A stretch of 34,475 nt of DNA from a virus: IMG/VR virus record IMGVR_UViG_3300034061_000589, positions 1 to 34,475 of that record. One strand, 5' to 3'. The position numbers and the translations under genes were made by a program. Under the pieces are notes generated by a model. That model ran no database searches. It was not told the DNA's origin and saw only the letters and a list, made by a program, of their open reading frames with translations. This document shows positions 325 through 34,475 of the stretch, piece after piece; positions within the stretch are counted from its first letter, which is position 1; each line of letters opens with the position of its first letter.

Positions 325-353
325 ATTATACTCTCTAGATAGTGCGATGTCAA
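325..353 (-). promoter_or_regulatory. Consensus sigma70 promoter for the gene at 116-316
   Basis: On the minus strand TTGACA (348-353) and TATAAT (325-330) are separated by exactly 17 nt, matching the bacterial housekeeping consensus at all 12 positions. The expected start site falls on or next to the ATG at 316, so the message would be leaderless. Confidence 0.85.
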
Positions 354-950
354 GTAATAAGTGCTGGCGCACTTAACGCAACTGCGAACAAACGCTTCGT
401 TTCACTTCGCATTTGCTTCTTGTTGCTATTGACTTACGTCATCTAGAAACAAAAACAAACAATATTGATTGATTTGATGATAGCAAGTGGAAAGTCAGAA
501 GGAACCTGTTACAAGGTTCCTTTTAAAAAAGACTTGATGATTAGCCGTCTAAGTCCTTCGGAAGTAGGTATTTTGTTTATACACTCAATGCAAGGGACCT
601 CACGCTCATTCCCTACCTACCGTGGCATGCTTCTCAGCACTAGCAAGTTCGTTACCTTATATCTTGCCTGTTTATGCACTATCGGAGTGTTCGCGATCAA
701 CAGCAATTGATCTATAACAACCCGTTGAGTATCCTGTTTCTCACTCTCAAACCCCAGTGGGGGTGGATCATTATGTTGCGTGTGCTCTTTTCAGGGAGCC
801 TTTTTCACAGCGGTATTACAAACTGGCCCGCCAACCTTATGTGCTGTACTAATAGGAGATTTAGGTGTTTTGCCCGGTCTCCTACTACTACTTATACAAT
901 CTGTCTAAAAACCCGGCTAAAACAGGCTATTTTTACATAAATGACTAAAT
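340..950. ncRNA. Putative large structured non-coding RNA, class unassigned
   Basis: This stretch of about 600 nt has no reading frame with protein-like composition but is dense in perfect inverted repeats. Helices: 358-364/369-375; 383-388/406-411 enclosing 390-394/398-402; 423-429/480-486 enclosing 430-433/438-441; 497-507/514-524 (11 bp with one G-U); 564-570/614-620 enclosing 594-597/610-613; 643-647/663-667; 677-680/686-689; 695-700/707-712; 751-755/760-764; 784-787/796-799; and 853-859/878-884. The strand is uncertain. For the minus strand: a weak TATAAG -10 at 891-896, a GTAA tetraloop at 434-437, and an exit hairpin (358-375) followed by a U-rich run. For the plus strand only a weak TATACT near 327-332 is seen. 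Size and phage context recall GOLLD or ROOL RNAs, but I cannot confirm either. No tRNA is visible here. Confidence 0.6.
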
Positions 951-999: not shown

Positions 1000-1482
1000 A
1001 TGGCTAAAAAACCCTATCCGTATGTACCTAAAAAGGTAAGAACAAATACAAAGTTTTTTCAAAAATGGGGCATACTTGCACATGACTTAGCAAAAGAAGA
1101 AGGTGTAACACCCGATGCTATTCATATGCGTGTATTGAACTATGGCACACCTTTTCAGCGTAAAAAGTTACCTACAATGTGTGAAGTAATGACAGGCAAG
1201 ACATCAATTCAAATTGCACATGAGTTGAATGTTACACCAATTAGTGTATATGAACGACTACGAAAAGTTGGTGATGCATACTATGAAAGTCAGCATGGCG
1301 CAGGCGTAGCGTTGCGTGGAAGACAAACAGCAGAACATCATTGGACTAAAACTAGTCAAGGTGGTTTAAAACAAGGTTGTAAATTTGGTTGGCTAAGTCC
1401 ACGCCATCCAGATTACTTGACTTGGCGTTACAAACTAATTCAACAGCATTGTCCAACATCAGGCGATCCAGAGGAGAAATAA
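1000..1482 (+). CDS. Putative DNA-binding protein with two helix-turn-helix-like segments
   Basis: A 160-residue basic protein. Two stretches look like repeated helix-turn-helix units: residues 26-50 (AKEEGVTPDAIHMRVLNYG) and 68-92 (SIQIAHELNVTPISVYERL). Each has the pattern 'xIAxELxVTPxxVxxRLxKxGxxY', and a linker with PFQRKKLP lies between them. The C-terminal third is rich in His, Trp and Arg (GWLSPRHPDYLTWRYK) and unassigned. It is the first gene of the only sizeable plus-strand operon, behind a consensus promoter and a GGAG site 6 nt before the ATG. It runs opposite to the structural genes, so a regulatory role is a reasonable inference but unproven. I do not recognise a named family. 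Confidence 0.85.
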   Translation: MAKKPYPYVPKKVRTNTKFFQKWGILAHDLAKEEGVTPDAIHMRVLNYGTPFQRKKLPTMCEVMTGKTSIQIAHELNVTPISVYERLRKVGDAYYESQHGAGVALRGRQTAEHHWTKTSQGGLKQGCKFGWLSPRHPDYLTWRYKLIQQHCPTSGDPEEK

Positions 1483-1483
1483 A

Positions 1484-1945
1484 ATGAATATGGCTGAATT
1501 TTTTGAAGTAGAACAAGTTGCCTTGCCCACAGAAAGAACTATTGAATATAGTCTAGGACACAACACTGGCACTACACAGTATATTAGAATTAAATGGCGA
1601 CGAGATGAATTGCTAATCAGAGAAATATCTCGAGCATTCTTAGATCATGTACGCATCAACAAAGATAACAATGCAGATCAAAAATACATCTATGATGAAG
1701 TTTACAACAAACCAAACAAAGACTTGCCTAAGCCAGACTTCAAACGCACAGGTATCAAACACAATACCTATGCTAGTTTTGTAAATGGTATTGAAGATAA
1801 CTTTGCAGATACCACACGCCATTACACACTAAAGCAATGGCCACATGTAATTGATATTGCTAACATTGCTGTTGAATATTTCAACAATGTGCATCCTGGT
1901 TACTTTGGTAAACCATTGCTACCATTTAAAGCCGTACGCAAATAA
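1484..1945 (+). CDS. Conserved-looking hypothetical protein, second gene of plus operon
   Basis: A 153-residue soluble protein of unknown function. Its ATG lies 1 nt after the stop of the upstream gene, behind a strong GAGGAG site inside that gene's last codons, so the two are translationally coupled. It has a mixed charged and aromatic composition, a basic segment IRIKWRRDELLIREISRAFL near residues 34-53, and a C-terminal half rich in Tyr, Phe and His (HYTLKQWPHVIDIANIAVEYF). There is no signal peptide or membrane segment. Expression together with the helix-turn-helix-like protein suggests a shared early or regulatory role. An imperfect hairpin follows the stop at once. Confidence 0.8.
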   Translation: MNMAEFFEVEQVALPTERTIEYSLGHNTGTTQYIRIKWRRDELLIREISRAFLDHVRINKDNNADQKYIYDEVYNKPNKDLPKPDFKRTGIKHNTYASFVNGIEDNFADTTRHYTLKQWPHVIDIANIAVEYFNNVHPGYFGKPLLPFKAVRK

Positions 1946-34008: not shown

Positions 34009-34277
34009 CGCACAGTTAACCTAAGACCTGTGTAACCCTTGGTGACCTTTTGATTCTTGCTGAACCAGCGATTGTCCACACCCAGTTCACGCAGTTTGGC
34101 TTCCATTGCCTTAGCGTCAGTGCTGCTCCGCTCGCTTACGCTGTACACAGTAGCAGCATAATTGCCCTCGGTGTAAGTGCCTTCACCTGCTGCCTTAATC
34201 TCTTCTGTAATGGCCTTTTCAAGGTTGCTGAGTTCTGCAATCTGTGCGCGGATGTTTGCAAGTTCTACGATGTTCAT
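34005..34277 (-). CDS. Small phage protein with SVSERSxxDAKAMxAKL pattern
   Basis: A 90-residue protein. A helical N-terminus (ANIRAQIAELSNLEKAITEE) is followed by GEGTYTEGNYAATVYSVSER and a C-terminal GYTGLRLTVR. This helix-then-strand layout, with a Gly-rich turn, a SERS-x-x-D motif and a T-x-LR-x-T-x-R end, resembles small proteins of many phages and prophages whose role is not settled. It has its own promoter with a 5'-terminal hairpin and an AGGAG site. Confidence 0.75.
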   Translation of the reverse strand: MNIVELANIRAQIAELSNLEKAITEEIKAAGEGTYTEGNYAATVYSVSERSSTDAKAMEAKLRELGVDNRWFSKNQKVTKGYTGLRLTVR

Positions 34278-34295
34278 TTTCTACACTCCTAGTTG

Positions 34296-34349
34296 CATAA
34301 GCGTTATTGCTTATGTGTGTAGTATATGGTTATGCAGGCCCTGTGTCAA
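34296..34349 (-). promoter_or_regulatory. Promoter D and 5'-terminal hairpin of the 34005-34277 gene
   Basis: On the minus strand TTGACA (34344-34349), 17 nt, TATACT (34321-34326). The CATAAGC/GCTTATG hairpin (34296-34302/34309-34315) starts about 6 nt later and is followed by AGGAG and the ATG at 34277. Confidence 0.85.
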
Positions 34350-34388
34350 CACTTATTTTAAAAAAAGATTTGTTTATAAATCAATAAC

Positions 34389-34475
34389 TTAGCGGCGTTG
34401 CAGATTGCGTATTTTGGTGTGATGTTCAATTTCTAGTTGAGTGAATGCAGCCACAGTATCCTGTAGAAGTCGTAC
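34389..34475 (-). CDS. Partial second copy of the 116-316 gene
   Basis: The C-terminal 28 codons and the stop of the same small protein, cut by the window edge. One residue differs from the left copy (Gln for Leu in the TLLEIEHH region). It exists here only because the window runs past one genome length. Confidence 0.85.
   Translation of the reverse strand, partial: VRLLQDTVAAFTQLEIEHHTKIRNLQRR

Follow-up and report, generated by a model that had tools for sequence, protein, structure and literature searches.

The question raised by the locus described here is whether a stretch of phage DNA with no convincing open reading frame (positions 340-950 of the window, by which is meant the whole 34,475-base virus record that was analysed) encodes a structured RNA, and, if it does, to what class that RNA belongs and what it might do for the phage. 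An earlier note on this DNA had proposed a large structured RNA across these positions, possibly of a new class if it was neither GOLLD nor ROOL. The phage is of marine type, and the setting is that of a tailed phage, since the window encodes a tape measure protein, a portal and a large terminase of tailed-phage type. Because its first bases (1-202) recur at 34274-34475 with 99% identity (the repeat is not exact), the record, though classed as linear, probably represents a complete circular or circularly permuted genome. A search of the whole window with Rfam 15 gave no match, and ARAGORN found no tRNA in its 34.5 kb.

L002 and L004, which are close relatives by their neighbouring genes, lack the region, and L007, which was fetched by its terminase, matched 66 bases of it. 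Scanning viral contigs for short conserved strings yielded L086-L089, L092, L096, L097, L099-L101 and L104-L109, and a covariance model built from 14 pattern-scan relatives (R1) recovered L005, a contig fetched by TerL alone, at E 1.8e-5, as well as L158 and L184. Together with two further pattern scans, R1 defines a family of about 60 viral contigs at E <= 0.05, with one strong match per contig. A second covariance model (R2), constructed from 14 distant members only and with the window left out, finds the window with a score of 57.2 bits (E 4.5e-12) and also recovers L105, L158, L216, L226 and L220, all of which lie outside its training set; the recovery of such untrained members is the cleanest proof of homology. 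The pattern matches L110-L126 were set aside as chance, none of them being accompanied by the surrounding RNA motifs. When the region of the window and the RNAs of L158, L096, L222, L221, L246 and L254 were compared by blastn with 50,697 phage records, no homologue was found; the matches of L158 to a Prevotella phage (E 0.03) and of L222 to Staphylococcus phages (E 0.06) were short and were taken as chance. Nothing significant was found by R1 in the pelagiphages HTVC111P/112P/202P/026P and phage DSL-LC06, or by R1 and R2 in parts of four jumbo phages, and a search of 398 Pseudomonadota genomes, made without a positive control, gave no RNA match.

That the region is a structured RNA is decided by covariation; folding energy alone would not suffice, since the single-sequence values (z of -1.14 on the plus strand and -2.55 on the minus strand) are only mildly unusual. 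In alignment A1, which comprises 26 pairs including the inner part of helix D, 94.2% of cells are paired, compared with 33-43% when the partners are slid by 1-3 columns; 14 pairs have changed on both sides, and the real alignment scores 0.438 for covariation where shuffles score 0.171 (0 of 500). Among 17 relatives, native partners beat permuted ones in all nine helices tested (p <= 5.5e-4). Since relatedness can inflate a permutation result, an empirical null was generated from 300 random window pairs in 13 representatives, measured in the same way as the ten helices; it has a mean z of 0.08, a 99th percentile of 2.14 and a maximum of 3.27. The z values of D (5.7), A (5.6) and H (3.3), like those listed in Table 1 for P1, E, C, B and J, all reach or exceed the null maximum, and those of K and G lie above the 99th percentile and below the maximum. 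In the larger member sets used for the pseudoknot helices, the native pairing score is 14.7 for D, against 12.0 (sd 0.31) for permuted partners, and 14.0 for H, against 11.2 (sd 0.32), with 0 of 20,000 permutations in each case. Because motifs in A, C, G or J served to find some of the members, the conservation of those motifs is inflated; stem pairing is unaffected. The earlier note had named the absence of covariation, or a conserved protein frame, as what would speak against its proposal; the helices covary strongly and none of the frames is conserved, and the large structured RNA is thereby borne out.

Table 1. Predicted features of the RNA and the promoter downstream of it, in window coordinates and in 5' to 3' order of the RNA
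Feature	Positions	Strand	Detail	Evidence
Whole conserved structured RNA (predicted)	470..848	-	ends approximate	alignment of 17-18 relatives
Pseudoknot helix H, 5' strand	842..847	-	ACAGCA; partner is the loop of hairpin E at 700-705	permutation, 41 members
Hairpin P1	809..832	-	stem GCGG/CCGC, GGCCAG in loop	z 4.7
Hairpin K	750..764	-	ACCCC/GGGGU, in variable middle domain	z 2.8
Hairpin E	695..712	-	stem GAUCAA/UUGAUC; loop pairs with H	z 4.5
Long-range helix D, 5' strands	675..690	-	ACACUC 690-685, UGCA 678-675	permutation, 44 members
Hairpin A	642..668	-	stem GGCAAG/CUUGCU, loop AUAUAAGGUAACGAA, invariant GG(U)AACG motif	27 stems
Hairpin B	627..640	-	GUGCU/AGCAU, GNRA tetraloop GAGA	covariation, z 4.2
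Helix C, 5' strand	614..620	-	GUAGGUA; partner 564-570	compensatory changes, z 4.3
Hairpin G	593..614	-	GGGA/UCCC, within loop of C	z 2.6, weakest helix
Helix D, 3' strands	581..592	-	UGCA 592-589, GAGUGU 586-581, within loop of C	covariation
Helix C, 3' strand	564..570	-	UACCUAC	covariation
Hairpin I	541..552	-	UUAG/CUAA (elsewhere UGUGA/UCACA)	by eye from alignment, without separate statistics
Direct repeat, copy 1	531..542	-	AAUCAUCAAGUC, 5' of J	alignment
3' hairpin J	497..524	-	AAGGAACC/GGUUCCUU; U-run 525-530 before it	z 4.2
Direct repeat, copy 2	471..482	-	UAUCAUCAAAUC, 3' of J	alignment
Promoter for ORF 116-322	325..353	-	TTGACA-17-TATAAT, perfect; downstream of RNA	consensus match only

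The fold was read on the minus strand of the window from alignments of relatives. From 5' to 3' it consists of the 5' strand of H, P1, a variable domain with K, then E, the 5' strands of D, A, B, C (whose loop holds G and the 3' strands of D), I, a U-run in some members, and J between the two direct repeats. Because D joins a strand upstream of A to a strand within the loop of C, it crosses C, and H links the 5' end to the loop of E; both are pseudoknots. The stems change extensively among relatives while their pairing is kept: helix H occurs as 20 different strand pairs among 41 members (by automated best match), P1 as GCGG/CCGC, GUGG/CCAC, GCAGG/CCUGC and GCAC/GUGC, and C has the compensatory variants GAGAGUA/UACUCUC and GCAGGU/ACCUGC. 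The loop of B, which in other relatives is GUAA, GAAA or GCAA, is often of the GNRA type. All the different stems of hairpin A are found under one GG(U)AACG loop motif, and the stem is paired in every member with a located anchor and a complete stem, and in 100% of cells in A1; the loop reads AUA(U/C)AAGGUAACG(A/C)A, and ACUAGGAACGAG in the distant group. Hairpin I is disrupted in L088. The repeats on either side of J lie about 50-63 nt apart and change together between phages (17 relatives), with the forms CAUCAA, CAUAAU, CAUGAU and GUAUCAAG, and identical substitutions separate the two copies of the window from those of L088; the repeats could be a putative protein or terminase site.

Similarity among the 17-18 aligned relatives is confined to the interval given in Table 1 and is lost outside it, so that the conserved RNA measures about 380-440 nt, the extent of 340-950 given in the earlier note proves too wide, and 340-470 and 850-950 are its flanks. 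Two of the four helices listed in that note, 497-507/514-524 (J) and 564-570/614-620 (C), stand, both with compensatory changes. The other two do not: the helix 853-859/878-884, at the 5' edge, is seen in this form in the window and L088 alone, L104 having another hairpin in its place, and the pair at 383-411 is situated downstream of the conserved span, where the sequence is common to close relatives only. The slight preference for the minus strand expressed in the same note has been strengthened. The RNA strand is the late-gene strand in the mapped contigs, GNRA tetraloops are present on the minus strand only, and the first pair of helix A is G-U in 8 of 14 sequences, where the other strand would give A-C; with base skew and folding energy also on its side, the minus strand is supported as the probable RNA strand. 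The overall count of G-U against A-C (16 vs 11) is a weak strand argument. A weak -10 element suggested near 891 was not picked up by a promoter scan of the window, which detects no consensus sigma-70 promoter for the RNA itself and places perfect sigma-70-type promoters, facing outward, on both sides of it (minus strand 353->325, plus strand 953->980). Three consensus or near-consensus sigma-70 promoters, two of them perfect (48-76, 325-353 and 953-980), are clustered about the RNA and the small genes next to it. In the subgroup of the window, the U-run at 525-530 could terminate the RNA before J.

The gene order in the group of phages to which the window belongs is tail and lysis-end genes, c1, c16/c19/c20, the RNA, small variable genes, TerS (c0, phrog_309 in the window), TerL and portal, and the position and strand of the RNA relative to TerS/TerL are constant in the mapped contigs of this group. 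The genes c1 and c16 (window 1000-1945 compared with L092 and L105) have an inverted orientation with respect to the RNA in the window and in L088 but not in other relatives. In a TerL tree the RNA-carrying contigs fall within a single clade of 24, in which TerL identity goes down to about 50%; L096 and L097 carry the RNA, and L003, L006, L008 and L010 fail to reach or fully cover the place where it would lie, so that the tree yields no count of gains and losses. L004 lies inside this clade, with a TerL 71% identical, and lacks the RNA in a contig that spans the place; L002, a 32.8 kb record which is 73% identical in c1 and whose TerL is outside the tree, has no RNA match. A second group (L220-L222, L227-L229, L233 and L265) carries the RNA with a RusA-like (Holliday-junction) resolvase upstream, a T4-type portal downstream and an oppositely oriented baseplate-hub gene, as read from the gene families of L221, L228 and L265. 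Judged by the portal, the isolates closest to this group are jumbo phages, and its virion genes are unrelated to those of the window's group. In a third set (L240, L248 and L254) the neighbour, read in L254, is phrog_16728, a family without known function. Since the RNA is found in unrelated phage groups, the module has either been transferred between them or is very old.

Gaps in gene annotation occur in some isolates. In the jumbo phages Phosso, XaC1, Callisto and Atu_ph07, 0.8-1.5 kb near the position of the RNA in the second group is without annotated genes (L268 6127-7140, L271 7019-7810, L270 6456-7968, L269 4892-5880; nothing significant by R1 or R2), and phage DSL-LC06 has a 755-nt gene-free gap (L210 573-1327) in which a GGTTCC...TGACT string resembles the end of J, with no model match.

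The comparison with known RNA classes bears on the first of the alternatives that must be weighed. No Rfam model, those of GOLLD, ROOL and OLE included, matches the window or any of 24 related contigs, and a lax search of two relatives was also without a match, which is the check and the outcome under which the earlier note had allowed for a new class. Several helices covary beyond phylogenetic and compositional expectation, homologues are recovered by a model without the query, and the RNA looks like a new class in sequence and fold, large structured phage RNAs being already known as a loose kind. A search of Rfam 15 and open-access papers, which is not complete, found no earlier description. 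We regard the existence of a new structured RNA class as almost certain. GOLLD and ROOL are the classes closest to it in kind, and by model match they are not the same family. ROOL measures about 600-660 nt and often lies near tRNA islands, GOLLD is often longer than 800 nt, lies near tRNA islands and may contain tRNAs, and both form RNA-only cages (PMC12286853). The RNA of the window resembles ROOL in being a large, structured, phage-borne RNA with several pseudoknots, no constant partner protein gene and an unsolved function, and it resembles GOLLD, also a large and structured phage RNA, in its lake and marine metagenomic origin and its conserved 3' part. Its phage origin, its several pseudoknots, its single copy per contig and the lack of a constant partner protein gene speak for an RNA of the GOLLD/ROOL kind that would assemble with its own copies into an RNA-only particle, a reading that we nevertheless consider unlikely: the models do not match, the RNA of the window is shorter (about 400 nt vs 600-800) and adjoins virion genes, and the window is without a tRNA gene, a frequent companion of GOLLD that is not a strict requirement. 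The pRNA of phi29, also a phage RNA encoded close to packaging genes, has fewer than 200 nt and belongs to podoviruses of the phi29 type, whereas the RNA of the window has about 400 nt and no Rfam match, and close relatives without it exist. The structured RNAs manA, wcaG and PhotoRC-II, likewise from marine phage sequences, are cis elements that precede genes of metabolism or photosynthesis (PMC2864571); the RNA of the window differs in having no Rfam match and in its gene neighbours.

If the RNA were instead a leader or attenuator acting in cis on the late operon, the nascent transcript would fold and control the transcription or translation of the terminase and the genes that follow. That the RNA precedes TerS/TerL, on their strand, in the mapped group 1 contigs agrees with this, as does the U-run after hairpin I in the window's group, which could be a terminator. 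The distance to TerS, however, ranges from 0.25 to more than 4 kb and is filled with differing, unrelated genes, in the window a separate consensus promoter follows immediately after the RNA, and several contigs of the second group have genes on the opposite strand just downstream; a free-standing RNA is preferred to a leader for these three reasons. The U-run is moreover missing from other subgroups, including L007/L089/L096. Regulation in cis is therefore improbable, and action in trans is judged reasonably likely. The location beside the terminase could also point to a DNA element (a pac or cos site, or an array of replication or transcription-factor sites) whose palindromes and repeats merely resemble RNA helices, and the two direct repeats that co-vary around a palindrome do behave like binding sites for one diverging protein. 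A DNA site has no need, however, of paired strands about 100 (D) and 140 (H) bases apart, with D crossing another helix, of GNRA tetraloops, or of a single-stranded loop kept invariant on stems whose sequence changes, and as an account of the whole region it is very unlikely; the part formed by J and the repeats could by itself be a DNA site. Least credible of all, and close to negligible, is the encoding of small antisense proteins by two plus-strand ORFs (465-710 and 674-940, of 81 and 88 amino acids). Both are linked to relatives by blastp, a similarity that arises because the DNA is homologous, but single-base indels between relatives break both frames and the longest open frame differs from one relative to the next.

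The explanation that we favour, with somewhat better than even confidence, is a new class of free-standing, trans-acting noncoding phage RNA, encoded on the minus strand with or just ahead of the late genes. Such an RNA would be transcribed from the minus strand together with the late (virion) genes or just ahead of them, would be expressed late, would fold into a compact particle, and would act in trans by binding a protein or RNA partner through its invariant loop and through J with its co-varying repeats. A loop that stays invariant while its stems change freely has the look of a binding site for a conserved partner, and the co-varying repeats suggest either another partner that changes faster or a site in the DNA. 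As to the step served, head assembly or DNA packaging is the best guess, these being the tasks of the neighbouring genes; drawn from the neighbours only, a role in packaging or assembly is rather doubtful. The tie to packaging is positional only, because the virion genes of the second group are unrelated and the neighbour there is a portal module, not a terminase. L004, with its closely related TerL, speaks against a strict pRNA-like packaging requirement, and because L004 lacks the RNA and L002 has no match, the RNA appears not to be essential for packaging. A multi-pseudoknot RNA class common to unrelated lineages and serving virion morphogenesis, be it packaging or head assembly and possibly in the form of an RNA-only or RNA-protein particle, is put forward only tentatively. 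The large structured RNA classes known from phages are few, and what GOLLD and ROOL do is unsolved; the RNA described here would be another class, unrelated by every model searched, with about 60 sequences, two pseudoknots and an exceptionally well-supported secondary structure, and, with its constant place among virion genes, it offers a well-defined target for expression, probing and deletion.

Several short motifs were observed around the RNA. The string TATAAATA, which occurs upstream of several of the RNAs, was rejected as a late promoter, its distance being variable and its count near expectation, and a small leader peptide after a ATTATGGCA motif was rejected on account of a frame that is not conserved. 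In many relatives, but not in the window, the RNA is closely preceded by tandem (ATT)ATGGCA motifs spaced 9-13 nt apart (L101 1494-1515, L089 about 1720-1742, L005 1669-1690, L087 2531-2555), which have no conserved reading frame and are a possible phage promoter or activator site. In a subset of contigs (L158, L096, L105, L007 and others) ACAGAACCCT(AC) is kept about 40 nt before the 5' end of the RNA, and about 100-150 nt after J a hairpin, CGGTAAATGCG(A/T)AGCATTT(A/G)CCAGA, is conserved in L005, L007, L096, L184, L226 and L247.
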